Shown: piece by piece, positions 1 to 40,457 of the stretch
Layout of the letters: every line of letters begins with the position of its first letter
How positions within the stretch are numbered: the first letter of the stretch is position 1
IMG/VR virus record: IMGVR_UViG_3300017963_000430
Span: 1-41,141 of that record
DNA from: a virus
DNA length: 41,141 nt
Reading direction: 5' to 3' (one strand)
The notes under the pieces: generated by a model
Seen by the model: the letters and a program-made list of their open reading frames with translations, nothing else
What the model was told of the DNA's origin: nothing
The model's database searches: none
Made by a program: the position numbers and the translations under genes

Positions 1-51
1 CCTCCCGTGTGGGTCGCCAGAAAGTACCTATTGTTGATCCGCGAGTGAAGG

Positions 52-588
52 TCATCTGTAAGCCTCTTGCGAGTAATGCTTTGCGTTCTGGTTGCAGATT
101 TCGCCAGGAGCAGCCTGGCCGGGCAGTGACAACTGACCTGGAACGTACGGCAGCCCGATGCGTGGTAGCCACTTCTCCAGGAACGGCTCCGACAGTCCTT
201 CATAGGTGATGATTTCGACGTCGACCTTGTTAGCCAGTGCCTCGACGATGTTGCGAGAGATGGCCACGAGGCGGTGATGGTAGGCACCTTCGAAGTCGTG
301 CTGATGGCCGCGAGCCACCATCGAGGCAGAATTGGCGATCGGCTCGCGAACCAGAACGATCACAACGATTCGCTCGTATCCAAGGCTGCGAAAGGCACGT
401 ATCCAACCACTCAGGCCACCGTGCTTGATGATGACGAGCGGTCGGTTCGGTGGCGGCAGTCGGCCCGCGGTCTTCGGCTGTCTTGTGCTGCCTTCACCGT
501 CGCACCCGGAGCGCACCAGGACGGATGCCAACAGGCGGTTTCCGCTGGAGGTGACCCCGGCGACGATGTACGCATTAGCGGGGGTCAT
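52..588 (-). CDS. Sulfotransferase-like P-loop protein
   Basis: This 178-residue protein is probably a small PAPS-dependent sulfotransferase or a related P-loop enzyme. Near the N-terminus a hydrophobic strand leads into VAGVTSSGNRL, which resembles the 5'-phosphosulfate loop. Further on, a strand followed by VREPIANSASM resembles the 3'-phosphate-binding segment with conserved Arg and Ser. ATG 588 is preferred over an upstream GTG/TTG-type start because AAAGG lies about nine bases before it. It overlaps the end of the GT9-FkbM gene by 14 bases, so it is the last member of a coupled glycan-modifying operon. The substrate is unknown; a sugar on the virion or on the host surface is an inference. 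An inactive P-loop fold cannot be excluded. Confidence 0.62.
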   Translation of the reverse strand: MTPANAYIVAGVTSSGNRLLASVLVRSGCDGEGSTRQPKTAGRLPPPNRPLVIIKHGGLSGWIRAFRSLGYERIVVIVLVREPIANSASMVARGHQHDFEGAYHHRLVAISRNIVEALANKVDVEIITYEGLSEPFLEKWLPRIGLPYVPGQLSLPGQAAPGEICNQNAKHYSQEAYR

Positions 589-2164
589 TCCAGCAACCTT
601 TCCATTTCGGGTTACGTAGGTGGAAGGTGCCAAGGTCACCCGCCCGGATTTCGCTGTAGTCCCAATCGCGGAATCGTGCGTTGCGCAGGACGTGCCAGCG
701 CCGGTACCCGTGGAACTCGCCGACGATTAGGCCGATGCGGTCGGTTTGCGGCGAATTGCCAAGAATCGAGAATTCGCTGCCTTCGCAATCCAGCTTCAGA
801 ATGTCGATCGCGTCAACATTCAGTCGACCCATAATGTCCTCGAGCGTCACAGTCCGCAGCGGTCGAGAGTCGCGACGATACGAGTGTTGCCCATCAAGCC
901 GCTCGTCGCTTCGTTTGGTGACGATCGAGCCGCCAGTTGATTCGGTGCCGGCAAACACAGCGTTCCACAAGGCGATGTCATCTTCGTATGTGCACGCTGC
1001 GTGCATGAAGTCCACGTCATCGCCTACGTTTCGTTGCAAAACAGGGATGTTCTCGGAGCACGCCTCGATGCAGATGAACTTGGCTTGCGGGTTGATCTCC
1101 TGATAGAGCTTGGTGAACGAGCCAATATGGGCACCGACGTCAACGACTACTTGCGGCCCGCTACGGTGATGCTCACCGAAAATGCGCATGCGATACGTAT
1201 CCTCGTAGTACACGTCTCGCACGATGACCAGGTCCTGCTCGGCAAATTGACGCCGTACAGCGAAAGGACCGTGCTCGAGATAGAGACCTTCGTCAAGAAG
1301 CTCACTCATTGCGCCCTCGATCGCCTCTGCCAGGCAGTGATAAGGAGAGTGCCGATAGAGTCGGCGAAACGCGGCCAATCCTACGGCCTGGTCGCCGCGG
1401 ATCAGTGATGCGTGGTCGTGAGGTACCAAGTGCAACGTCGCCGGCGAGACGTCCGCAAAATGTATCGGATGATGATGTGTCCAAACGCCGATTGTTGGCG
1501 TGTCTGTGGCCATCGCACAATGGAGAGGGCCGCTGTCGATCGCCACGACAACGGTAGCCGCCTGGCACAGCGCAACAAGTGTTTCGCCGTCGCCTGTATC
1601 CGGCCGGCCCCAGAGGGCGTTGCCTCGCCCGGGATTCTCATACGTTGCGCAGAGCGGGCTGCGACGATCCCAGTCGAGCAGCACTGGGGTCAAACCTCGC
1701 CGCCGCATTGCCTCGAGCGCCCATCGAGCGGTTGGCTCATCGAGGTCCTTGTGCTCTGACGACGTGTTGCCTTGATAGTGAAGCAATCCGATCGGGCCCA
1801 GACCATTGACGTAAGATGAAACGCGGTCCGCTGCGGCTTGCCCAGTGTTGACCGAATAGGTCAACGGTTCTGGCGGTAGACCGAAAACCTCATCCAAACA
1901 CAGGCTTACTTTCGTTGAGGGACACTCGTGGTACGTGCGATGACTTTCCCACCAGTCCAGGTTGTAGATGTGGTCGTAGTCTTCCTTGACGACGTCGACC
2001 AATTCCAGCGATCGACGGCACAAGCCACGGTAGAGCGAGTGCTTGCCCGGCAAGGCCGCGACGTCGATCGACCATTCAGGACGATAGTGACGGAGCATCT
2101 GCAGAACGGCCGTCAGTTGAACAGCATCACCAAGGCCGTGCCGGAATTTGATCAATACGTTCAC
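575..2164 (-). CDS. Bifunctional GT9 glycosyltransferase / FkbM methyltransferase
   Basis: This 529-residue protein has two clear domains. Residues 1-290 look like glycosyltransferase family 9 (heptosyltransferase type): an N-terminal IKFRHGLGDAVQLT segment and the donor-site-like IDSGPLH at 209-215. Residues 335-510 look like an FkbM-family SAM methyltransferase: VVVDVGAHIGS at 339-349 is the SAM-binding loop and LKLDCEGSE near 457 is the FkbM signature. Known members transfer sugars and O-methylate sugar hydroxyls. The start overlaps the stop of the preceding GT9 gene in an ATGA junction, so translation is probably coupled. It presumably acts in the host cytoplasm on a phage-specified acceptor. 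Fusion of the two activities in a phage protein is unusual. Confidence 0.85.
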   Translation of the reverse strand: MNVLIKFRHGLGDAVQLTAVLQMLRHYRPEWSIDVAALPGKHSLYRGLCRRSLELVDVVKEDYDHIYNLDWWESHRTYHECPSTKVSLCLDEVFGLPPEPLTYSVNTGQAAADRVSSYVNGLGPIGLLHYQGNTSSEHKDLDEPTARWALEAMRRRGLTPVLLDWDRRSPLCATYENPGRGNALWGRPDTGDGETLVALCQAATVVVAIDSGPLHCAMATDTPTIGVWTHHHPIHFADVSPATLHLVPHDHASLIRGDQAVGLAAFRRLYRHSPYHCLAEAIEGAMSELLDEGLYLEHGPFAVRRQFAEQDLVIVRDVYYEDTYRMRIFGEHHRSGPQVVVDVGAHIGSFTKLYQEINPQAKFICIEACSENIPVLQRNVGDDVDFMHAACTYEDDIALWNAVFAGTESTGGSIVTKRSDERLDGQHSYRRDSRPLRTVTLEDIMGRLNVDAIDILKLDCEGSEFSILGNSPQTDRIGLIVGEFHGYRRWHVLRNARFRDWDYSEIRAGDLGTFHLRNPKWKGCWNDPR

Positions 2165-3336
2165 GCTGCCAATCGCTCCACAAGTTGTATTACGTCATCG
2201 GGCTTGATCATCGCCATGCATGCCGGTACCGGCCGACGCAACCCCAGCACGGGGCGTTTACATAGTCGATCGTTCTTGTCGTCGCCATCATCTAGAGGAA
2301 CCACGCGTGATTCCCAACACGCCTGGCGTTTGCAGCACTCGAGCGCCCCCATAGTGTGGAGCGTGTACTGCAACGGATAGCTCGTCCACGTGACGGGTTC
2401 ACGACCGCCAAGCAGGCAGATGTAAGGTTTTTCCCACGCTGCACACAAATGCTGCAGGTACGTTACAGGCCCGAGCCCGCCCTGGCAGTGCCACGCCAGG
2501 CGGATTAATTGCCTGTGGTCCGTCTTTCCGACCAGGTCAACGACACCGTCAAGCCGCGGGTGGTCATCCGTTTCGGCTCCGACCTGGACCCATTGGATAT
2601 GGCCGAGCGTGCGATCGACGACGGCCTGGAAGTACTCGACAGGCCACGCCTTCGTGGTGTAGTCCTTTTTGACGCCGGCGTTGACGATCCAGAACGGCAC
2701 ATCCTGGCCGATTGTTTCATGCACCTGGTTCTTCCACGACTTTTCATCGTCGCTCAAATACAGGCAAGGGCGATTGACGGTCAGGGTCAGAGGCCGGCCG
2801 ATCTCCTGGGCAAGGTGGCTCGTGAATCCGCCCAAGAAAGGGACGTGCGCTTGGTTGCATTGGTGGATCGTCGGATAGTGCATCTCGACCGGGAGTCCGT
2901 CCGGATCGTCGCAGTCGACGGGCGTGATATGTGGATTGTGTTTCCAGATGTCGAGGGCCGGCGTCCGCACGTCCGTCACGTACTCGCCGGGATACGTCGC
3001 GTGCAACGATTCGACGGCTGCCGTCAACGTGAGCACGTCGCCAGGGCAAAGCCGCGTGATCAGTACCAACTTCTTCGCGTCGGGATTCGTTTCGCGTTGT
3101 GCATCCGGTGACAACACGTCGCGATACAGGCGAGCCGTGGCAAACAGTTGGTCATTTGGTGCACCGTTGGCTCTCATCGTGGCCAGGGCCCTGGAGACCG
3201 TCAGGCGATTGACGTCCTGCGGAGGATCCAGCGTACGGCAGCGTGCGCAGTCCTCATCGGTGGTTCCAACCGGTCGCTCCGCGATCCCGATGGAAACCAT
3301 GCAAGCGTCGTTTTTTCGGTGTCGGCAATTCATCAT
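2161..3336 (-). CDS. Glycosyltransferase family 9-like protein
   Basis: This 391-residue protein resembles ADP-heptose:LPS heptosyltransferases (GT9). After about 85 residues of Cys-containing leader comes LVLITRLCPGDVLTLTAA, the typical GT9 first strand and glycine loop. Further on are WIVNAGVKKDYTTKAWP and QVGAETDDHPR, which match the acceptor/donor region, and LGPVTYLQHLCAAW replaces the usual D-S/G-P-x-H signature. The C-terminus has a Cys cluster (CCKRQACWE) that may bind metal. The start lies in an ATGA overlap with the Ser/Pro-rich gene, so the sugar enzyme is translated together with a likely virion protein. Acceptor and donor are unknown. Confidence 0.8.
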   Translation of the reverse strand: MMNCRHRKNDACMVSIGIAERPVGTTDEDCARCRTLDPPQDVNRLTVSRALATMRANGAPNDQLFATARLYRDVLSPDAQRETNPDAKKLVLITRLCPGDVLTLTAAVESLHATYPGEYVTDVRTPALDIWKHNPHITPVDCDDPDGLPVEMHYPTIHQCNQAHVPFLGGFTSHLAQEIGRPLTLTVNRPCLYLSDDEKSWKNQVHETIGQDVPFWIVNAGVKKDYTTKAWPVEYFQAVVDRTLGHIQWVQVGAETDDHPRLDGVVDLVGKTDHRQLIRLAWHCQGGLGPVTYLQHLCAAWEKPYICLLGGREPVTWTSYPLQYTLHTMGALECCKRQACWESRVVPLDDGDDKNDRLCKRPVLGLRRPVPACMAMIKPDDVIQLVERLAA

Positions 3337-4271
3337 TCTGGAGGCGGAGCGTAAAGACAGCAGGTCACGACATAATCACCAGGTTGGTACGAGCCCGGAT
3401 TCGGTTGACTGCAACCACCGATGTCACAGCCTTCGACGGCGTACAGGCAGTCGTCGCTGACCAGGTCCCAGCCGCTTTCCGTTTTGAGATACAGGCACGT
3501 TCCACAAGGGTCTTCGCCGCAGTTTTCCGAACTCGCCACGGACGACGGCGCGGATGGTGAAGACGATGGCGAACTGCTGGGCGGCGAGCTGCTCGGTGAA
3601 GACGATGGCGAACTGGGCGGCGAGCTGCTCGGTGAAGACGGGGAGGAACTGCTGGGCGGCGAGCTGCTCGGTGAAGACGGGGAGGAACTGCTGGGCGACG
3701 AGCTGCTCGGTGAAGACGACGGGTTCAATCGGCAGCCGCAGAAGATACTCAATTGCACATAGGCCTCTTTGACACCCAAGCCATCCTCTTTCCACAGTAC
3801 TTGTGCTCTTCCCCCTTCGACCAACGTCAGCTTGGTGTTGTCCCCGGGGATCGCAGCCACGCAGGTGTAGCACTGGTTTTCTTCAGTGACCTCCACCAGG
3901 ACGGGAGTTGCCCCGGAAACGACGGCTGGGCCGGTCTTGCTTTCATCCAGCGGGATTTGCGACACCGCCCATCTATGAATGTCGACGCTTGTGGGAGTAC
4001 GCCCCACAAGAGCGACTTTCTGGCGAAAATGGTTGGCGTTTTCGTCGGGGCGAATCAACGCATCCGAAAACCCAAATACGGTAAACCGATCACATGGGCT
4101 ACCGGTCGCGTTCTTGATTTGGCAAACGCCCGGATTCAGCTCATCCTCGAGCGGCCCGTGGTTGCGCCCCTCACGATTCGCGGCCACCCAATTCGCAGCG
4201 TCGCGTTTCATGTTTTCCGCGCGAGCGGACAGCTTGATGCGTTGACTTGGTTGTACGTGTTCGAGCGGCAT
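3333..4271 (-). CDS. Virion-associated protein with Ser/Pro-rich linker and Cys-rich C-terminus
   Basis: I do not recognise a named family. The 312-residue protein has three parts. Residues 1-180 form a folded N-terminal domain with several Cys (CYTC, CGC). Residues 185-247 are almost entirely Ser and Pro, encoded by 36-39 bp tandem repeats. Residues 250-305 are Cys-rich (CGEDPCGTC, CDIGGC, VVTCC) and probably disulfide- or metal-stabilised. It follows the distal tail genes and is coupled to GT9 genes, so a tail-tip or fibre protein with an extended linker is likely. The linker is an obvious candidate for O-glycosylation by the neighbours, but that is inference. Confidence 0.7.
   Translation of the reverse strand: MPLEHVQPSQRIKLSARAENMKRDAANWVAANREGRNHGPLEDELNPGVCQIKNATGSPCDRFTVFGFSDALIRPDENANHFRQKVALVGRTPTSVDIHRWAVSQIPLDESKTGPAVVSGATPVLVEVTEENQCYTCVAAIPGDNTKLTLVEGGRAQVLWKEDGLGVKEAYVQLSIFCGCRLNPSSSPSSSSPSSSSPSSPSSSPPSSSSPSSPSSSPPSSPSSSPSSSPPSSSPSSSPSAPSSVASSENCGEDPCGTCLYLKTESGWDLVSDDCLYAVEGCDIGGCSQPNPGSYQPGDYVVTCCLYAPPPE
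3559..3711 (-). repeat. Four tandem 36-39 bp repeats coding the Ser/Pro linker
   Basis: Four head-to-tail units lie at 3559-3597, 3598-3633, 3634-3672 and 3673-3711. Three are 39 bp and one lacks a codon triplet (36 bp), so the frame is always kept. Units 3 and 4 are nearly identical. The pattern fits recent slippage or unequal crossover that changes linker length by whole repeats. Confidence 0.9.
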
Positions 4272-5651: not shown

Positions 5652-8276
5652 TCACATCCCCCAGCTGAAGCTTGACGAATTGAGCTTTTCCACGCCCCTG
5701 TTGATTTGCTTTAGCTCGGCCAGTTGTTTCTTATTGAGGTCCTGCCCCTGAAACTGGGCGCCGAGTCGGTATCCGCTAAACGTGCCGGTGTTGCGACTCG
5801 CAACGTCCCCAGCTCCGTCTTTTCGATCTTTCCATCGGTCGCCTTCTTTCTTTGCCCTCTCGGAGGCCGCGGCCGCTTCCGCAATGGCCGCTGCGAGTTC
5901 AGCTCGAGTGACCTCCAGTCGGCTCCGGCCCTCACTCAAGCCGCGTTTGTCCGCAGCCTCTTGGACGGACTGCTGAAGTCGCTCACGAGCGAGCTGCGCC
6001 TCCTTCTTAGATGCTTCCGCCGCCAAGTTCGCGGCCAGCTGGGCATTGCTGGCCATATCCAGCATGTTGCCGGCGAACGCTTCTTGGGCCGCACGCGTGC
6101 TTTCATGCACCAGTCGCTTTGCCTGCTCGGTGGCCGACTCGATGGGCCCTCCTATGGATTCCAGTTCACTGCGATTTCTTGCGATCGCTTTGGTATATCG
6201 CTCGATCTCGCCCTGATCGCCGGCGAGCTCTGCCGCTGCGAGCCGCCCCTGTAACTCCCCGTGTTGCGTTTCAAGGCTTCGCCGGCGAGCTTGTCTACCT
6301 TCACGCTCCAGCTTTTCGTTTCTGGCATCTTCGGCACGCATGTCGACGCCAAGCACCTTGCGGGCCACGCTTCCCACGATGCCTTCCTCTGACGCCAGGT
6401 CGAGTATGCCCTGGGCGATGCGATCTTGCGTATCGGTCCACAACCGCTGAACGGCGATTGCAGCGCCTGCGAATGCTTCGATCATTGCCGACGTGAAGTC
6501 ACCCCAGATCTTCTGCAGTGCAGCCACGCCGGTTTGCCAGGCGGCTTTGATGCCGTTCATGATGATTTCGCCGGCGGCTCCCCAATCGCCGGTGCTTACG
6601 GCGTCAACAACTCCCTGAAAGGTCTCGCCGAAAATCCCGCCGAGGTCCTGCAGCGGCTCACCCAAAGCGGCCGCAAGGTATTGCCCGAGTGCTCCCACCG
6701 AGTCCCGGATCGAACCCAGGGGCCCCGCGATAACGTCCGCCAACCGCGACCAGACGCCGGAGATCCACGACCAGACACCAGCCGCCCGGTCTTGGATGAA
6801 CCCCCACGCTTGACCGGCAGCAGCCGTCAGCCGGCCCCACTGCGACACAATGAGTGGACCGCCCAACACGCCGGCGAGGAACTGCCCGATCACGCCGACC
6901 GTGTTTTTGACGGCCGCCATGACCTTCGCAATTACACCGGGCAGTTTTGACCAGACGCCGGAGATCCACGTCCACACGCCGGCAGCCTGCTTCTTGATCG
7001 CTCCCCACACTTCGCCCACGGCCCCGGTCAACCTGCCCCATTGGCTCCGAATGCGTTCGTACGCCTGCAATACGATCACCTGAACGCCGGACCAGGCAAT
7101 GCGGGCGGCTAGCTTCAAATCGCCGACCCGCAGCGCGTCGACAATTCCCCCAAAAACCTGCTTGGCCGTGCCCAACGCCTCCATCGCAATGCCGGCCACA
7201 ACGTTCCAAGCCTTCCCGAGTGCACCCACCGCTTGCTGGCCGGCCTCCGTCCACTGCGTCCATAGGTAGATGCCGCCGGCGATCGCCGCGACGACGACAC
7301 CCACGGGTGACACGATCGCACCCAGTACGGACCCAACCACACCCACGGCGGCTGATAACACGCCAAGCACGGGGCTCAAGGCGCCAACGGCAATGGAAGC
7401 CACCTTCAATGCACCAGCCCACCCCAACACCGCGACGCCTGCGCCCCCAAGCACCGCCGCCGCTTTGGCAGCCAACATAACGAGCCCACGATTCTCCCTA
7501 ATGAAGTGACTGACGCGACCAGCAGCATTGCCAAACGCCTTTGCCAGGCCTGACAGACTCGGAGCCAATGCCCCTCCCACCTGCAACCACGCGCCGTGCA
7601 GTGACCGCTTGAGCTCATTCATGCTGTCGGTGAGTTGGGCTGCCGCGGCCGCGTCCTCACCAGTCAACGTGAGCCCCAACTCTCGGGCTCGTTTTCGCAG
7701 GGCCTCGATGCCGACCGAGCCTTCATTGAGCAGCGGCATCAGTTGCCGAGCGTTGTCACCAAAAACTTCAAAGGCAAGTTGTGCGCGTCGGGCGTCATTT
7801 GGTACGCGGCCGAGGGCGTCAGTGAGGGTCAAAAACTGCTGTTCCGCGTCCATGTTCGATAGTTCGCTCGCCGACAAACCCAACTCTTTGAGCGCCCGGA
7901 CCGCCGGCCCGGTTTCGGTCGTAGCGTTACCGATCCGCCGCGTCATGCGAAACATGGCGTTGCCCAGCTGCGTCAAGTCGGTGCCGCTCTGTTCGGCGGC
8001 GAAGCCCATCTCAGACAAAGCCTCGACAGATACGCCCGTCCGCTTGCTCATCTTGTCCAAGGCGTCGCCGGTTTTGGCGAATTCGTTGGCAGCTCCCAGT
8101 AGAGGTGCAAGGAGCGTCGCCGAAGCTAAGACCATGCCGGATCCGGCGGTAGCCGCAGCCCGGGCAGCGGTGCGGAGGCGCATCTGCATTCGATCCAGGC
8201 CCGCATTCAGTTTGCGGTCTTTGAGATACACCTCGACGGCCGCCTTACCGGCCCGGATCTCACGCGATCCTGACAC
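5652..8276 (-). CDS. Tail tape measure protein
   Basis: At 874 residues this is the longest gene in the window. The N-terminal 200 residues match tape-measure proteins (KTGDALDKMSKRTGVSVEALSEMGF followed by the QLGNAMFRM region). The middle, residues 260-340, is a run of hydrophobic helices, and the C-terminal third is charged coiled coil. In this family the helical rod sets tail length. Residues 411-475 and 478-542 are a tandem duplication. The start is GTG 8276 just after the TAG of the gp10-like gene. Position after the tail chaperone genes confirms the role. Confidence 0.93.
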   Translation of the reverse strand: MSGSREIRAGKAAVEVYLKDRKLNAGLDRMQMRLRTAARAAATAGSGMVLASATLLAPLLGAANEFAKTGDALDKMSKRTGVSVEALSEMGFAAEQSGTDLTQLGNAMFRMTRRIGNATTETGPAVRALKELGLSASELSNMDAEQQFLTLTDALGRVPNDARRAQLAFEVFGDNARQLMPLLNEGSVGIEALRKRARELGLTLTGEDAAAAAQLTDSMNELKRSLHGAWLQVGGALAPSLSGLAKAFGNAAGRVSHFIRENRGLVMLAAKAAAVLGGAGVAVLGWAGALKVASIAVGALSPVLGVLSAAVGVVGSVLGAIVSPVGVVVAAIAGGIYLWTQWTEAGQQAVGALGKAWNVVAGIAMEALGTAKQVFGGIVDALRVGDLKLAARIAWSGVQVIVLQAYERIRSQWGRLTGAVGEVWGAIKKQAAGVWTWISGVWSKLPGVIAKVMAAVKNTVGVIGQFLAGVLGGPLIVSQWGRLTAAAGQAWGFIQDRAAGVWSWISGVWSRLADVIAGPLGSIRDSVGALGQYLAAALGEPLQDLGGIFGETFQGVVDAVSTGDWGAAGEIIMNGIKAAWQTGVAALQKIWGDFTSAMIEAFAGAAIAVQRLWTDTQDRIAQGILDLASEEGIVGSVARKVLGVDMRAEDARNEKLEREGRQARRRSLETQHGELQGRLAAAELAGDQGEIERYTKAIARNRSELESIGGPIESATEQAKRLVHESTRAAQEAFAGNMLDMASNAQLAANLAAEASKKEAQLARERLQQSVQEAADKRGLSEGRSRLEVTRAELAAAIAEAAAASERAKKEGDRWKDRKDGAGDVASRNTGTFSGYRLGAQFQGQDLNKKQLAELKQINRGVEKLNSSSFSWGM
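6651..7046 (-). repeat. Tandem duplication inside the tape measure gene
   Basis: Two copies of about 195 bp lie at 6852-7046 and 6651-6845, 201 bp apart. Both encode SQWGRLT, then AAGVW-W-ISGVWS, then a G-Q-LA-LG-PL ending. The copies have diverged at many positions, so the duplication is not fresh. The 67-residue period would lengthen the tail rod by one unit. Confidence 0.85.
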
Positions 8277-20258: not shown

Positions 20259-20996
20259 TCACGAACCACCAGGTAGATACCGCTGCGCCCGCATCGCGTC
20301 GGCACCCTGCACGACCACATGCGGAGCGATGGCGCGGAGTAGGTTGCGGATCGGCGTACACGGAGGAACTCCTGCATGCGTGCGTCGACCATAGCCGTCG
20401 CCGGCGTAATGCGACATCACACCGACAACGTGCCCTTGATAGATCACAGGACCACCCGAATCGCCTGATTCGCAGATCGGATCCAGGAGCATGTTGTGAG
20501 GTCGATGTGATGCGTAGCCACGGACGGGAGACGACCAGTGAATGAGCCTGATTTCGGAAACGGGTCCCGATTGCCCACCATAGCCGAACACGTCCACGCG
20601 CTCACTCGCCTCCGGAGCGGTTTCGGCAACTGGGATCGGCTGCACATTTGCCGGCGCCTGGATGCGAAACACGGACGTGTCGTATGCCTCACCGGTTCCA
20701 ATCACCGGCCCGCTGGCCGAGTACCCATTGCGAAACGTCGCCGTCGCTGTCCGGTATGGTAGCGTGACGTGGCGCGCCGTGAGGACGTAGCCATTCCCGG
20801 CGTCGTCTATGGCAATCAGTGTGCCCGTCCCTCCCTGGTCACCAGCCGTGACGCGGACGATCGCCGGCGTTAGCGGCATCCAGTCCTCTCCGTGCGCGTG
20901 TGGGCACCCCACGAGAAGCACACCGATCGCCAACAGAAAAAGCAGAATCGCGAGCGCGTCAAACATGAATCCCGCGACTGGATCGCGTTTTGCCAT
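20259..20996 (-). CDS. Trypsin-like serine protease lipoprotein
   Basis: This 245-residue protein has the trypsin/HtrA-type triad: His76 in LTARHV, Asp106 in AYDTSVF and Ser180 in ESGDSGGPV. A hydrophobic stretch at residues 12-30 ends in LVGC, a good lipobox with Cys31, so the mature enzyme should be a membrane-anchored lipoprotein outside the cytoplasm. ATG 20996 has AAAGGA upstream. It precedes the collagen-like gene and the holin-like gene, so it could act in cell-envelope breakdown or virion-protein processing. No PDZ domain is present. Confidence 0.85.
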   Translation of the reverse strand: MAKRDPVAGFMFDALAILLFLLAIGVLLVGCPHAHGEDWMPLTPAIVRVTAGDQGGTGTLIAIDDAGNGYVLTARHVTLPYRTATATFRNGYSASGPVIGTGEAYDTSVFRIQAPANVQPIPVAETAPEASERVDVFGYGGQSGPVSEIRLIHWSSPVRGYASHRPHNMLLDPICESGDSGGPVIYQGHVVGVMSHYAGDGYGRRTHAGVPPCTPIRNLLRAIAPHVVVQGADAMRAQRYLPGGS

Positions 20997-21147
20997 GGCT
21001 TGGTGGTTCCTTTCTTTGGAGTGCGAGCAATTCGTTCTGCGACAGCTCAATCCCGTAACGGCGCAACACGAGCGGCAATATCACACTCACGTGCTCGGCA
21101 CGGCCGACGCGTCGATCGAGCTGTCGTATTTTGCGTGCAGCGTCCAT
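20959..21147 (-). CDS. Possible small helical protein, unknown
   Basis: This 62-residue frame fills the gap between Gam and the protease. Its product has a plausible helical core (RKIRQLDRRVGRAEHVS and YGIELSQNELLALQRK). The ribosome site before ATG 21147 is poor and the frame overlaps the protease start by 38 bases. It may be real but is the weakest gene of this block. Confidence 0.45.
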   Translation of the reverse strand: MDAARKIRQLDRRVGRAEHVSVILPLVLRRYGIELSQNELLALQRKEPPSHGKTRSSRGIHV

Positions 21148-29010: not shown

Positions 29011-29466
29011 TCAAAACAGGTCCTTCTCTCCGCGGGACGATCGTTCGTAAGCTTCTAAAAAGCGGTCAACGACCTTCTCCGCAGCGAGAGCGTTGCGGAA
29101 ATAGGCGCGATTCTTCGTTTTGAAATAACGCTTCTGATGGCCGCGCATCTCTTGGACCTTGGTGAGAAACTCATCCAAGGTGAAGTCGCAATCTACGGTT
29201 GGCACAATGGCCTGAACGACAACGCGACTCCAATTGTTGTCGAAGTCGTGGCAGGTCCAGCCATCGCAAAGCTGTGACTCTCGCATCGCGTTTCTCACTC
29301 GCATTCCGTCGCGAAAATGAACAGGGTGCGGCGGATCGCCTGGAAGCACGACATTGAGATGACCATACTCACGGAGTATGCCGAGAAAGTAGTCTCGGCC
29401 ACGCGGACCAAGGTAGACGCGAACATATTCAACCAGGCCGGCGGGTATGGAACGGCACTTGTTCAT
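29011..29466 (-). CDS. Phage protein next to replication gene, unknown
   Basis: This 151-residue protein starts at ATG 29466 with AAAGGAG upstream and overlaps the replication-gene stop in ATGA. It has YVRVYLGPRGRDYFLGILREYGH and a C-terminal helical region with KTKNRAYFRNALAAEKVVDRFLE. Coupling to the initiator-like gene suggests a role in replication, possibly as a helicase loader or accessory factor, though no ATPase motif is present. Confidence 0.6.
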   Translation of the reverse strand: MNKCRSIPAGLVEYVRVYLGPRGRDYFLGILREYGHLNVVLPGDPPHPVHFRDGMRVRNAMRESQLCDGWTCHDFDNNWSRVVVQAIVPTVDCDFTLDEFLTKVQEMRGHQKRYFKTKNRAYFRNALAAEKVVDRFLEAYERSSRGEKDLF

Positions 29467-30278
29467 ACGGCGCTCCTTTCGTATCGCAGCGCGGACCGCA
29501 AAAACTCAGCGGCCCAGTCCCAATGCTCCTGGTTTACTCGGCTGAACTCATACGCCTTGATCCCGGCGTACAACACAGCTGCCGGCCGATGGATTCCCTG
29601 CGAATTTGCCGCATGATGGGCAAGTGCCAAAAACTTTCGCTTATCCTCATGGGAATTCGTCAGCCATCCTTGCAAGACTGCGTCGTTAAAGGCCGATCGC
29701 AACCGCGGCAAGTTCCACTCTCGCAGATCATGGTCCGTCAGATCCCGCAAGGTCGTCCGCGACTGGTCAGCGCCACCACGTGAAGAACACGGTTCACGGT
29801 TTACACGGGATATATGTTCTTGTTCTTCACGGCACGGGCGCTCTGACCGGCGCTGACCAGCGCTGACCAGCGCTGACCGGTTTGCCAACTGGTCAGCAGG
29901 CGGAGGCCTCGAAAACAGCCCCAACTCGTCGATCGGATCGTCGGCGATCGGGGCGAGGGCGTTTACGCGATCGACCGACAGGAAATAGGTCCGCTGTTGT
30001 CCGAATGCGACGATCTCCATCACACCGAGGCGCTGCAAATGTGCAGCAGCGGCGACAAATGTGTTTGGAGCGCAACCCATGTCCCTGCCTGCTTTTCGCT
30101 TTGAGACGCTCAATTCGTAGCACTGATGACCCGCAATCTCTCGTGGCCGGCCATTTTGGGTCATGTACACGATCAACTCGACGGACCAGTCCGGCAGTCC
30201 GAAGGGATCCAGCGCCGTTCGAAGCGCCTTTTCACGCCGTTCTCCGATCTCAAAATCCAAGGCCTGCTGCAAATCCAT
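29463..30278 (-). CDS. Replication initiator-like winged-helix protein
   Basis: This 271-residue protein is the best candidate initiator. The N-terminal 100 residues look like a winged helix (WSVELIVYMTQNGRP, DMGCAPNTFVAAAAHLQRLGVMEIV, TYFLSVDRV). The C-terminal part is helical. Residues 133-146 are encoded by tandem decamer repeats, and a second repeat cluster lies 20-60 bases upstream of the start. Lambda O is also an initiator whose gene contains its iterons. GAGGA lies nine bases before ATG 30278. No helicase or polymerase gene is visible, so the host machinery would be recruited. Confidence 0.6.
   Translation of the reverse strand: MDLQQALDFEIGERREKALRTALDPFGLPDWSVELIVYMTQNGRPREIAGHQCYELSVSKRKAGRDMGCAPNTFVAAAAHLQRLGVMEIVAFGQQRTYFLSVDRVNALAPIADDPIDELGLFSRPPPADQLANRSALVSAGQRRSERPCREEQEHISRVNREPCSSRGGADQSRTTLRDLTDHDLREWNLPRLRSAFNDAVLQGWLTNSHEDKRKFLALAHHAANSQGIHRPAAVLYAGIKAYEFSRVNQEHWDWAAEFLRSALRYERSAV
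29841..29898. repeat. Iteron cluster inside the replication gene
   Basis: Four tandem decamers at 29841-29880 follow the consensus CGCTGACCAG on the plus strand (first and last with one to two changes). An inverted copy CTGGTCAGCA lies at 29889-29898, and another single copy CTGGTCAGCG at 29763-29772. The 10-bp period puts all copies on one DNA face. They are candidate binding sites for the encoding protein. Confidence 0.8.
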
Positions 30279-30297: not shown

Positions 30298-30337
30298 CTG
30301 GTCAGCGCTGGTCAGCGCTGGTCAGCGCTGGTCAAAC
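30298..30337. repeat. Iteron cluster upstream of the replication gene
   Basis: Three perfect CTGGTCAGCG decamers in tandem (30298-30327) are followed by a partial fourth (CTGGTCAAAC, 30328-30337). The orientation is opposite to the internal cluster. It covers the stop of the RHH gene and the leader of the replication gene, so it can act as an autoregulatory operator, as an origin, or as both. Confidence 0.85.
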
Positions 30338-35640: not shown

Positions 35641-36771
35641 TCAAGGTCCTTTCGCGAGGATCTTATCGAAGGCATTTGGCATGGGCAACGTGCGGAGCGC
35701 CTCGACCACAGCGATCTCGCTGTTGTCGTAATGGTCCGCCGAGATCCGGCTGAGGCCGCCGTCGACGGCCGCGGCCGACAGCGTCGAGTCCGCAAGCAGC
35801 TTGGTCGTAAGATCTCGATCCGCGTGGCCTGTGATCAAAGGAGCGATCCCAGGTCGATGGCGATTCAACCAGGTCGTGGCCGTCTTCCTGAAATGACGAA
35901 GCTGGTACCGGGGCTGCTCGCCTGTGAGGATATTCCGTTTCGGAATGACCTCGGCCACCTCACACAGACGAGACCATTCGCGGTAGAGCTTCTCGGAGGA
36001 CAGCGGCCAATTGAATAGCGGTACCTCCGGATCGGGCGATTCCGGGCGAATCGATTGCACGTGGGCGTGAACCACGTGGTTCATCGGCAAGATCAGCGGT
36101 TGCGGTTTTCGCCGGCGTTGCTTCTGTGGAACGTACCAGAACCAGCCCCACTCGTTTTCCGCGTGGCCGTCCTGTGCCGGCGTTTCGGCTTCCCAGGCGA
36201 TTTGGCGCCAGGGCAGGGCAGAATGGTCCGTCTCGTAACGCACTAATTCCTGCGTCCGAAAGCCGTAGTGGAAGAAAAGCACGATCGCGGCCCGCCATCC
36301 TTCCGCTGTCGAGTAGGGCAGGGGGGCGCCGGCCTGGTCTCGGTCCGGCCAGGTCAATTGGCCGCAAGACTCGTACAGCCGATCGAGCTGCTCGTAGGTC
36401 AGGTAGTACTTGTCGGCGACGGTCTTTGCCGGCAGCCGGTCGACGGCGGGGGCGCGGATGATGATCTCCTGACGCTCACACCAAGCGAGGATGGCCCGGA
36501 TCGAGCGCAGATGCTTGTTGACGTTCAATGGGACATTGCGGCCCCGGAGCGTTTCTGCGAGCCAATCCCGCCATTCCTCGAGGTGCCTGCGCTTGACCTG
36601 GTCGACGGTCGGTGCCGGTCCCCCGGACCGATTCGACCAGTACTCATCCCACCGGCGAAGATGCGTTGCGTAGTCCTGTCGCGTGCTTCGCCGCACGTTC
36701 TGCTTCTCGAGTTCTGGAAGCTTTCCCTTTTCGTAGGCTTCGCGTAGAGTCCATTCCGCTTTGCCTGACAT
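35641..36771 (-). CDS. Tyrosine integrase (second), next to attP
   Basis: This 376-residue enzyme has a core-binding domain and a catalytic domain: Arg172 in YGFRTQEL, Arg292 in YQLRHFRK, His316 in ITGHAD and Tyr348 in ADHYDN. The usual first His of the H-x-x-R motif is Tyr289, a tolerated but uncommon change. ATG 36771 overlaps the stop of the tail gene as TGATG, so translation is coupled to a structural gene. Its position 240 bases from the tRNA fragment makes it the likely integrase for that site. Confidence 0.88.
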   Translation of the reverse strand: MSGKAEWTLREAYEKGKLPELEKQNVRRSTRQDYATHLRRWDEYWSNRSGGPAPTVDQVKRRHLEEWRDWLAETLRGRNVPLNVNKHLRSIRAILAWCERQEIIIRAPAVDRLPAKTVADKYYLTYEQLDRLYESCGQLTWPDRDQAGAPLPYSTAEGWRAAIVLFFHYGFRTQELVRYETDHSALPWRQIAWEAETPAQDGHAENEWGWFWYVPQKQRRRKPQPLILPMNHVVHAHVQSIRPESPDPEVPLFNWPLSSEKLYREWSRLCEVAEVIPKRNILTGEQPRYQLRHFRKTATTWLNRHRPGIAPLITGHADRDLTTKLLADSTLSAAAVDGGLSRISADHYDNSEIAVVEALRTLPMPNAFDKILAKGP

Positions 36772-37544
36772 CACGCATCCGTCTCTTGCACGATCGCCTC
36801 AGTCACAGAGGCGCTGCCCTCGGAAAGCGTGCGTGGGCCGTCGCCTGTGGGGTACAACTTGACGCCCCAATACATTTCCTTCCGCACCTGCATCGCCAGC
36901 GACGCATCCGCCTTGATGACGATTTGAATGTCTCCAGCCGATTCATCGGTCACCGTCAGAGACGCGTCCGTGGCAGTTTCTGCGGATGCGCCGGCTAGAT
37001 ACACCAACCCATCCTCCTCGGAGACGAAAATCTCCGCGGCGGTATCAGGGTTTGCCCGATTGCGTTTGATCGCAAACTTCACGTCGTCGCGGCCGGCCAA
37101 CGACCCCAGACCAGTGATATTGATCGTGACCTTATCGCCGCTGTAGATCACGATCGCGGATCCACTGATGGCGGCAACGACTTCGGCCGCCTGCTGGGTC
37201 AGTGTCCGGCTGGAAGCGATCCACGTGCTATCAATAGGTATCGGGGCAGACAAAACGACCCCACCCGACACGCTGCCGCCGATCGCAACACGGTTCGCGC
37301 CCGCTGCACACGCAGCATCGGGCAGATCGAGCCGATACCAACCGTCACTGATCTCCTTGACGCCCCCGTCCGAGTGGTCATCCGTGAGCGCCGACAAGTC
37401 GCTCAGGCTAATGGGAACCTTGGCACCATCCCGGCGATACCACAGCGTGAAATCCGCGGCTACCTTTCCCGTGAGGGCGGCACCTGCGGACGTCATTGCC
37501 CGAATATCGATCGAGACGTCGGTTGTTCCTGGTGAGACGACCAT
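36771..37544 (-). CDS. Tail/fibre-type structural protein
   Basis: This 257-residue beta-rich protein has repeated Ig-like strand patterns: DVSIDIRAMTSAGAALTGK, GGVKEISDGWYRLDLPDAAC and DKVTINITGLGSL. Such domains are common in phage tail and fibre proteins. There is no signal peptide. It precedes and is coupled to the integrase. The exact role is unknown. Confidence 0.65.
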   Translation of the reverse strand: MVVSPGTTDVSIDIRAMTSAGAALTGKVAADFTLWYRRDGAKVPISLSDLSALTDDHSDGGVKEISDGWYRLDLPDAACAAGANRVAIGGSVSGGVVLSAPIPIDSTWIASSRTLTQQAAEVVAAISGSAIVIYSGDKVTINITGLGSLAGRDDVKFAIKRNRANPDTAAEIFVSEEDGLVYLAGASAETATDASLTVTDESAGDIQIVIKADASLAMQVRKEMYWGVKLYPTGDGPRTLSEGSASVTEAIVQETDA

Positions 37545-38470: not shown

Positions 38471-40057
38471 TCAAACTCCTAGCATGAGTGTTTGTTGAAC
38501 GATTATTGGGAGCGAGGTCCCCTCTGGGGCGACGAAGGTCGCGGTTGCATCCGCCGTTACCCCGCCAACCTCTGCTGAGATGGTCGCTGATCGGATGACT
38601 GTTGCGAACAACGCAGACGCTTGCCCTGTGGCCGCTCCGATCTCTATCACGGCGGAGGCAGTGTAGATGGGAGCGGTGAAGGTAGCCGTTGAATCGCTGA
38701 TGGTTGCTCCGACGGTTATCGCTGCTGATGCCGCATAGACCGGTGCTGTGAAGGTAGCACTCGCTGCCGACTCTACTCCCCCAGTGATCGGCGATGCGGT
38801 CGCTGAGAAAACCTCGGCAGCGAAGAGGGCCGTGGCATCTGCGGAAATGCCCCCGATCGTAACTCCGACGGTCGCCGAGTAGATGGGAGCCGTAAACGTC
38901 GCAGATACAGCTGCCTCAACTCCACCAGAGACGATTGCGACCGACGCCGTGTAGGCGGGAACGGTGAACGTGGCCGAGACTGCTGGACTCACCCCTCCCA
39001 CATCCGCAGAGACAGTTGCCGTGTAGACTGGAGCCGTGAACGTGGCCGTTGCAGAGACCTCTACCCCTCCGGCCGCTGGTGCTGCGCTTGCGGTGAAGGT
39101 TGGTTCGGTGGTTGTCCCAGAGGCTGACGCTTGCGTGCCGCCGATGCTACATGCTGCCGAGCCGGAATACGTGGGAGGCGTAAAGGTGGCGGTGGCGTTT
39201 GGACTGACGCCCCCGGTCGTGGCCGCGACTGTCGCTGTTCGTACTGATGGCGCCGCGCCGCTAGTCATCACCGGAATGGTCGGTCGCTGGTACAGATCGC
39301 GACCGTTGAGGTAGATGTCGCGGATTTCACCAGCAGTTAGCGCTCGGTCATACGCAGACGCATCAGCGAGCCAGCCGTTCCAATTGGCTGAGCCATACCG
39401 AGCACCGCGGCGATAGTATGCACCCAACGTGATAATGCCGTCCGACCCCAGCGCGGACGCAAAACTACACGCACCGGACGATTGATAATCTGAGATTCCG
39501 TCAATGTACAATTCACGGTCAGTTGCGGTACGGAAGACCATGGACAGCAAGTGCCAGCCAGCACGCGAATAAGCAGTCGTCCCATAATACGAATCGTTGG
39601 CACCAGTCGTGGCCCAGTAAACCCAATACCCGATGCGTAATACAGTCGACGAGAACGGACGGACGAACAGTCTGGTCTCATCTCGTGTGCTTTGGTCCGA
39701 ATTGAAATTGAGCACCTCCCAATATACGGTGTCTGTTGTGCTCTCATCCAGAAACTTAAACCACACTTGGAGCGTGAATGGATACCCGGTAATTTTTGTG
39801 AACGGCGATACCAGCACATCATCAGAGTTGGTCTCGTCGAACCATCCTGCCCGTGATCCATCATGTGGGCCAGGCCCATATCGCGTGGTGCTTGAACCGT
39901 TCCAGGTGCCGTGGTTGCGAAACGCGGACAGATCGTAAGCGTCCTCGCCGTGTCCTTCATTCAGCGGCCACGATCCTACCAGACCAAGATCGCGAGAATG
40001 CTGAGGGCCAGCATTCCCTACCGATAGATCAACAGGTAGTGAATCGATCAGGAACAT
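38471..40057 (-). CDS. LamG-domain fibre protein with tandem beta repeats
   Basis: This 528-residue protein starts at ATG 40057, two bases after the previous stop. Residues 25-250 form a LamG/concanavalin-type domain (LVGSWPLNEGHGEDAYDLS, FTLQVWFKFL, RAGWHLLSMVF, ELYIDGI, WNGWLADASAYDRALT). Such domains bind glycans. Residues 275-515 are about a dozen diverged repeats of ATFTAP-Y-A-x5-GGV-type. A receptor-binding or surface-adhesion role on the tail is likely. It is the largest gene in this block. Confidence 0.75.
   Translation of the reverse strand: MFLIDSLPVDLSVGNAGPQHSRDLGLVGSWPLNEGHGEDAYDLSAFRNHGTWNGSSTTRYGPGPHDGSRAGWFDETNSDDVLVSPFTKITGYPFTLQVWFKFLDESTTDTVYWEVLNFNSDQSTRDETRLFVRPFSSTVLRIGYWVYWATTGANDSYYGTTAYSRAGWHLLSMVFRTATDRELYIDGISDYQSSGACSFASALGSDGIITLGAYYRRGARYGSANWNGWLADASAYDRALTAGEIRDIYLNGRDLYQRPTIPVMTSGAAPSVRTATVAATTGGVSPNATATFTPPTYSGSAACSIGGTQASASGTTTEPTFTASAAPAAGGVEVSATATFTAPVYTATVSADVGGVSPAVSATFTVPAYTASVAIVSGGVEAAVSATFTAPIYSATVGVTIGGISADATALFAAEVFSATASPITGGVESAASATFTAPVYAASAAITVGATISDSTATFTAPIYTASAVIEIGAATGQASALFATVIRSATISAEVGGVTADATATFVAPEGTSLPIIVQQTLMLGV
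38540..39240 (-). repeat. Degenerate tandem repeats in the LamG protein gene
   Basis: About twelve in-frame units of roughly 20 codons repeat the pattern ATFTAP-x-Y-x-A followed by a GG-V turn. DNA identity between neighbours is partial, with recurring stretches such as GGAGCGGTGAAGGTAGC-like sequence on the plus strand. Copy-number change by recombination is likely. Confidence 0.75.
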
Positions 40058-40058
40058 G

Positions 40059-40457
40059 CTACGTCCATGACAAAGCCGTGTTTGTTTTTGTGATTCCACC
40101 CGAGCCGTCTGGTTTAATCTCAGACACTTCACCACTCACGGTAATGGCTCGACCACTGCTACCGTTTTCGCAGTAGATTTTGAAATCAGAAAACGCGGGA
40201 TCGATGGGAATGACATCAGAAACAGCAGGGTCTTCATCATTCGTGTCAAGAGTCGCTCTCGGAACAGCATGAGCAACCGTGGTATACAGTGTCCCGTCGT
40301 ACGAGCCTTGCACGTATACTGTCACGATATCCCCCGAAGCCGGAGTTCCGTCATTATCGGCCTTGATCATTGCCGAGACTTTGACAGCTTCGGCATCCAC
40401 GCCGAAATTATCAGACGTGGCGTTTCCCGATGCTGAAATAGATTTGCTTGCAGCCAT
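40059..40457 (-). CDS. Small beta-rich structural protein
   Basis: This 132-residue protein begins MAASKSISASGNATSD and has strands like EAVKVSAMIKADNDG, DIVTVYVQGSYDGTLYTTV and RAITVSGEVSEI. It looks like a small tail or decoration component. AAGG with short spacing precedes ATG 40457. It lies just upstream of the LamG gene. Confidence 0.6.
   Translation of the reverse strand: MAASKSISASGNATSDNFGVDAEAVKVSAMIKADNDGTPASGDIVTVYVQGSYDGTLYTTVAHAVPRATLDTNDEDPAVSDVIPIDPAFSDFKIYCENGSSGRAITVSGEVSEIKPDGSGGITKTNTALSWT

Follow-up and report, generated by a model that had tools for sequence, protein, structure and literature searches.

Gene layout of the locus

The window, meaning the whole stretch of DNA analysed here, comprises positions 1-41,141 of IMG/VR record IMGVR_UViG_3300017963_000430, a linear contig of 41,141 bases in which no terminal repeats closing the contig were found. 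It contains terminase, portal, head protease, and capsid calls. On its minus strand, downstream of tape-measure-like and Dit-like genes, lies a series of overlapping genes, with every open reading frame located where an earlier, sequence-only reading had placed it. The features are listed below; labels beginning with L denote loci compared with the window.

5652-8276, minus strand: putative tape-measure-like protein, 874 residues, assigned by size, position, and tblastn similarity to the same-position gene in L002 and L009
4284-5132, minus strand: Dit-like tail protein, the conserved gene preceding the Ser/Pro gene; "Dit-like" by position, not structure
3333-4271, minus strand: Ser/Pro-linker virion fiber protein, 312 residues, proposed acceptor
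3720-4271, minus strand: its N-terminal virion base domain, residues 1-184, from an AlphaFold2 model, Foldseek, and synteny
3531-3722, minus strand: its Ser/Pro linker, residues 184-247 (43 Ser, 18 Pro, 2 Ala, 1 Val, no Thr)
3556-3719, no strand assigned: 39-bp in-frame tandem repeat, 4.3 copies, coding most of the linker
3336-3530, minus strand: its C-terminal Cys-rich knob, residues 248-312; similar Cys-rich ends occur in L009, L014, L044, and L016
2161-3336, minus strand: GT9 glycosyltransferase with an N-terminal Cys module, proposed priming enzyme; family alignments and PF01075, 28.5 bits (Pfam cut-off 22)
2218-2337, minus strand: invariant cysteines C334, C335, C340, C359, and C373 of this GT9, proposed TibC-like metal finger
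575-2164, minus strand: GT9-FkbM fusion, 529 residues; PF01075, 31.4 bits (Pfam cut-off 22), PF05050, 45.2 bits (Pfam cut-off 22.7), and TIGR01444, 63 bits (cut-off 37.7)
52-588, minus strand: sulfotransferase-like small protein, 178 residues, function putative
1-55, minus strand: start of a fifth open reading frame (ATG at 55, ATGA overlap with the 52-588 gene), cut by the contig end

The tape-measure-like product would serve as the upstream anchor of the late tail region. The Dit-like protein is 48%, 33%, and 32% identical to the same-position proteins of L016, L002, and L003, respectively.

The genes are tightly packed. The ATGA overlap reported at 3333-3336 is present, while the one reported at 2161-2164 reads GTGA, because the second GT9 gene begins with GTG. 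A reported 14-base overlap falls at 575-588 if the sulfotransferase-like gene starts at ATG 588, which is most likely its start, since the L006 homologue aligns from there. The series continues past position 52, where the frame opening at ATG 55 runs off the contig. Gene starts also overlap in relatives, by 4 nt in L009, 4 nt in L193, and 16 nt in L016. Two GT9 enzymes and an FkbM methylase had been listed one by one; their family assignments pass the Pfam cut-offs, but the second GT9 and FkbM form one fused protein, leaving three downstream enzymes rather than four.

The Ser/Pro protein has a predicted virion base domain

The Ser/Pro stretch, put at 63 residues by the sequence-only reading, is real, although the exact run is 61 residues (184-244) including one Ala. 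An in-frame 39-bp tandem repeat encodes most of the linker, so the stretch is no accident. Thr is nearly absent from the linkers of this and related Ser-rich proteins.

We modelled the N-terminal domain with AlphaFold2 from a 43-sequence alignment (pLDDT 86.9). Its best Foldseek matches in the PDB were the phi29 gp8.5 head-fiber base and capsid or decoration chains of T1, FCWL1, Pam3, Sf11, and HFTV1, and the top 16 were all phage or archaeal-virus capsid, decoration, or head-fiber chains (probability 0.97-1.0), with E-values of 3e-3 or weaker and modest TM-scores of about 0.4-0.55. In BFVD, the domain matched fiber-like entries with E-values down to 3.9e-5. In most of about 110 loci, the gene immediately following the Dit-like one matched a profile of the domain. 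The Ser linker is optional: most of the base-domain homologues in those loci do without it. From the predicted fold, the 3333-4271 product is likely a virion surface fiber or decoration protein; we leave the two undivided because the fold scores are moderate. It resembles phi29 gp8.5 and related capsid decorations (PDB 6qyy, 9kzj, 8hdt) in the predicted fold of its N-domain, with modest TM-scores, and differs in that its gene follows a Dit-like gene and that a Ser/Pro linker and a Cys-rich knob are added.

The downstream enzymes

The five cysteines of the first GT9 lie near its C-terminus and are invariant in 11 aligned GT9 sequences. TibC, a protein heptosyltransferase, carries an iron finger in its C-lobe formed by Cys 339, 342, 358, and 370, and heptosylates Ser, not Thr, of its adhesin substrate (PMC4358343). 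The invariant cysteines resemble the TibC finger in place and are unlike it in spacing. The best PDB profile match of the GT9 was WaaF (1psw), a weak one at E=0.004, and no TibC chain appeared among its matches up to E=10; we therefore speak of likeness to TibC, not membership. The alignment also reads the canonical GT9 Asp before GP as replaced by Gly in this protein, which counts against the proposed role. Known bacterial GT9 enzymes use mainly ADP-heptose.

Residues 1-40 of the GT9 form a separate Cys-rich module, with the pattern C-x7-C-x17-C-x2-C in the window. On comparison of L009, L014, L016, and L044, this module is fused to GT9 in some phages and is a separate open reading frame in L014.

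By its domain matches, the second enzyme is a second glycosyltransferase joined to an O-methyltransferase, and methylation of a glycan is suggested because FkbM is fused to GT9. The identity of the 52-588 product is less clear. A sulfotransferase signature had been claimed for it, and searches did not support the claim: Pfam, PHROGs, NCBIfam, and PDB sequence searches gave no sulfotransferase family match (PF13469, PF17784, or PF00685), and the protein shows a P-loop-like SSGNR motif and REP, with nothing further. Comparison with the neighbors' sulfotransferases by hhalign aligned 23 columns of the P-loop-like motif at a probability of 0.7%, which gives no support, and a single-sequence structure model was unusable (pLDDT 46). 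Homologues are 71% identical in L006 and 33% identical in L224, where the gene lies between a GT gene and FkbM. Relatives do hold real sulfotransferases at the same place, namely a true PF17784 protein in L014 and GT25-sulfotransferase fusions in two others. Sulfation by the 52-588 product may occur, as the weakest step of the scheme proposed below.

Related loci in phages and Planctomycetota

The Dit-like gene has at least 200 relatives in IMG/VR, of which the best 80 were kept, and is found in 42/392 Planctomycetota genomes; this distribution points to Planctomycetota as the most likely host phylum. When the GT9, Ser/Pro, and 52-588 proteins were each searched against the phage collection, none had a match. 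Relatives were instead found by peptide patterns, of which automatic ones gave few and hand-made motif patterns more.

The sequence-only reading had proposed looking for the same gene order in other prophages, and similar orders do occur. L016 comes closest, with tape measure, Dit-like gene, small open reading frame, Ser/Pro protein, GT9 with the Cys-rich N-module, and methyltransferase. The order is seen again, with Ser-rich proteins, in L009, L014, and L044; L002 and L003 encode a second Ser/Pro protein of 862 residues plus GT and methyltransferase genes. L006, from a Gemmatales assembly, holds FkbM, a Mannosyl_trans3 GT, the 52-588 homologue, an HldE-type adenylyltransferase (E 3.6e-47) whose start shares an ATGA with the stop of the sulfotransferase-like gene, and then a heptose-7-P-kinase-like stretch (E 4.9e-30) whose kinase-like part is split over two reading frames. 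A full host HldE is encoded elsewhere in the same genome, and, as judged from gene content, the hosts make ADP-heptose themselves.

Several further arrangements were observed in these loci. A second cluster in the Gemmatales genome (L224:496-2888) has the order Mannosyl_trans3-type GT, 52-588 homologue, FkbM. The GT25-sulfotransferase fusions follow Ser-rich virion proteins in two different phages (L193:7534-8856 and L116:12730-15069). A Maf/MptE-like protein, below the Pfam cut-off, recurs beside Ser-rich proteins (L180:6082-7152, L177:5964-7016, L182, L184, and L181) and recalls flagellin glycosyltransferases. A Hint/intein-like domain apparently lies between Ser-rich stretches in L180:7080-8516 and L116:10823-12154.

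Glyco-enzymes are linked to Ser-rich proteins

We examined the association from both sides. From the enzyme side, every one of the 8 distinct phage loci that show this GT9 in sufficient context (the window, L002/L003, L006, L009, L013/L008, L014, L016, and L044) also encodes a Ser-rich virion protein. Among chromosomal relatives of the GT9, 5/6 planctomycete loci had a Ser-rich neighbor; the five, from four Planctomycetota genomes, have it within about 6 kb of the GT9, compared to 0/16 random windows from three of those genomes (p=4.9e-5). Three of the five neighbors are Rhs-like with Ser linkers, one is a Ser/Pro protein, and one is almost pure poly-Ser. The sixth locus, L039, showed no Ser-rich neighbor on its 9-kb contig.

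A poly-Ser protein on planctomycete contig L037 (L037:6680-7363) has a Ser/Gly run of more than 100 residues and a Tat-like N-terminus; the contig also encodes a GT9, a PqqD/SPASM-like radical-SAM protein, and an Rhs-like protein.

For the tail side, loci were picked by the Dit-like gene alone, blind to GTs. Glyco-enzyme genes (GT9, GT25-sulfotransferase, GT4, GT2, GT32, and Maf/MptE-like) occurred in 9/9 Ser-rich loci, two of which (L180 and L184) are counted for Maf/MptE-like proteins that score under the Pfam cut-off, and in 2/27 Ser-poor loci, a count based on 25 of the 29 Pfam families in the Ser-poor set (Fisher p=6e-7, or 1.4e-4 if clear GTs alone are counted; both tests ignore relatedness). 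In L180, L182, and L184, the Ser-rich protein is separate from the base-domain protein. A tree-based paired test yielded one pair on supported branches, too few independent pairs, and the Ser-rich label changes 7 times on the best tree, with 3 changes forced. Inheritance of a single ancestral cassette would hardly account for the variety of enzymes between loci (GT9, GT25-sulfotransferase, GT4, GT2, and GT32).

This variation can also be taken to mean that the genes are ordinary cargo (morons), with products acting on small molecules or DNA and sharing no common substrate. Stray FkbM and GT genes are common in phages, and our single-protein search of the phage collection with the fusion returned FkbM-domain matches alone, including in unrelated phages. 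We find this account barely plausible: GT, methyl-, and sulfotransferases stand repeatedly beside Ser-rich virion proteins, with fusions between them.

The linkage is not universal. Wherever a phage locus with this GT9 had sufficient flanking sequence, a Ser-rich partner was there. A different GT, Mannosyl_trans3, is found near the same tail genes without one, and the generalization that a Ser-rich partner accompanies all GTs near these tails was rejected. The chromosomal GT9 of L039, on its short contig, also has no Ser-rich neighbor.

A proposed virion-glycosylation cassette

We consider it likely that the locus, part of the late operon of a Planctomycetota phage or prophage, is a virion-glycosylation cassette in which the GT9 would glycosylate Ser of the fiber linker and the fusion and perhaps the 52-588 product would decorate the glycan. 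The central proposal of the sequence-only reading, that the phage has its own system for glycosylating a Ser-rich virion protein, gains independent support from the predicted fold, synteny, gene fusions, and the association found blind to GTs. Because the pairing recurs in related phages and bacterial chromosomes, the fiber is a likely target of the enzymes. The 3333-4271 product would carry a Ser/Pro stalk on its conserved virion base domain and end in a Cys-rich knob. Translationally coupled to it, the GT9 (2161-3336) would put the first sugar on linker Ser, most likely heptose from ADP-heptose, as with TibC-type protein heptosyltransferases; the Thr-poor linkers fit such an enzyme, since TibC modifies Ser, not Thr. 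The GT9-FkbM fusion would then extend and O-methylate the glycan, and the 52-588 product may attach one more group, sulfate for instance. The outcome would be a glycan-coated stalk, either protected or used in attachment.

Alternatively, the enzymes could glycosylate another virion protein, such as the capsid, the Dit-like protein, or the tail tube, with the Ser/Pro protein a flexible, unmodified stalk adjoining them by chance. In L013 and L008, the GT9 is flanked by head protease and capsid genes, and some phages lacking Ser-rich proteins have Mannosyl_trans3 GTs after their tail genes, which leaves room for other virion proteins as targets; mycobacteriophage glycosylation has likewise been reported on capsid and tail proteins (PMC11256854, PMC11652166). 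Ser-rich proteins nevertheless track GT genes across loci even outside phages, where capsid is absent, and the Ser/Pro protein of L013 is fused to a transferase-type domain (Stealth_CR2-like, E 7.8e-8, below the cut-off). Overall, we judge a different virion target rather unlikely.

An integrase-like gene at 35641-36774 of the window suggests a temperate phage, and GT9 enzymes classically build LPS core. Both would suit a cassette that alters the polysaccharide on the host surface, by LPS or O-antigen conversion, in the course of lysogeny or infection. We regard that as very unlikely, given that the genes sit within a late tail operon and overlap a virion fiber gene, that Ser-rich linkage occurs in both phage and chromosomal settings, and that no Gtr-type flippase is seen among the cassette genes of this cut contig.

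A wider extension of the fiber-glycosylation reading is possible, and we offer it tentatively. The locus could represent a modular "glyco-fiber" kit of Planctomycetota phages, in which a conserved virion base protein repeatedly gains a Ser-rich stalk and interchangeable GT, methyltransferase, and sulfotransferase genes. The GT9 would then represent a distinct family of protein-Ser glycosyltransferases that also accompanies the Ser-rich Rhs-type and poly-Ser proteins of planctomycetes.

Comparison with known glycosylation systems

The proposed cassette is a variant of phage virion glycosylation, a known phenomenon. In mycobacteriophages Che8 and Rita, phage GTs put O-glycans on virion proteins (Freeman et al. 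2023, as described in PMC11256854 and PMC11652166). The proposed cassette is alike in that phage-encoded GTs would decorate a virion protein with O-glycans. Whereas capsid and tail proteins are modified there and the GT genes are described near the genome 3' end (Maravista), here a Ser/Pro-linker fiber gene overlaps a GT9 gene, followed by GT9-FkbM and sulfotransferase-like genes, in Planctomycetota phages.

A second parallel is TibC/AAH, where the acceptor gene adjoins the enzyme gene; a candidate Ser-rich acceptor is adjacent or close to GT9 in the 8 distinct phage and 5 chromosomal loci, L039 being the exception. These bacterial autotransporter heptosyltransferases (BAHT) are related to heptosyltransferases, modify Ser in an adhesin at the cell surface, and have a Cys finger in the C-lobe (PMC4358343). 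They differ from the window's GT9 in Cys spacing and in giving no detectable sequence match in the PDB search, and their acceptor is a beta-helix autotransporter rather than the low-complexity virion linker proposed here.

The glycosylation clusters for Ser-rich repeat proteins (SRRP) of Gram-positive bacteria similarly encode a Ser-rich surface stalk beside dedicated GTs (GtfA/GtfB). Here the enzymes are GT9 and FkbM, not GtfA/B, no accessory Sec was seen, and the setting is the virion, not the cell wall.

Our literature search, with bioRxiv and most subscription papers outside it, found no report of this pairing in phages. If the proposal is true, phages infecting a phylum that has received little study have protein O-glycosylation of their own for a defined fiber, including methylation and perhaps sulfation. 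With a candidate acceptor and its enzymes named in one operon, it is testable by co-expressing two genes, and it would point to an uncharacterized GT9 subfamily for Ser-rich proteins in planctomycete cells.

Other features of the record

The same record encodes a trypsin-like protease at 20259-21050 and a Laminin_G_3 lectin-type protein at 38471-40135. It also holds two 10-bp tandem arrays of about 3.6 copies each, at 29843-29878 and 30298-30334, which are mutual reverse complements. The latter array lies just upstream of an open reading frame at 29463-30278, and the arrays are possible iterons or operators.
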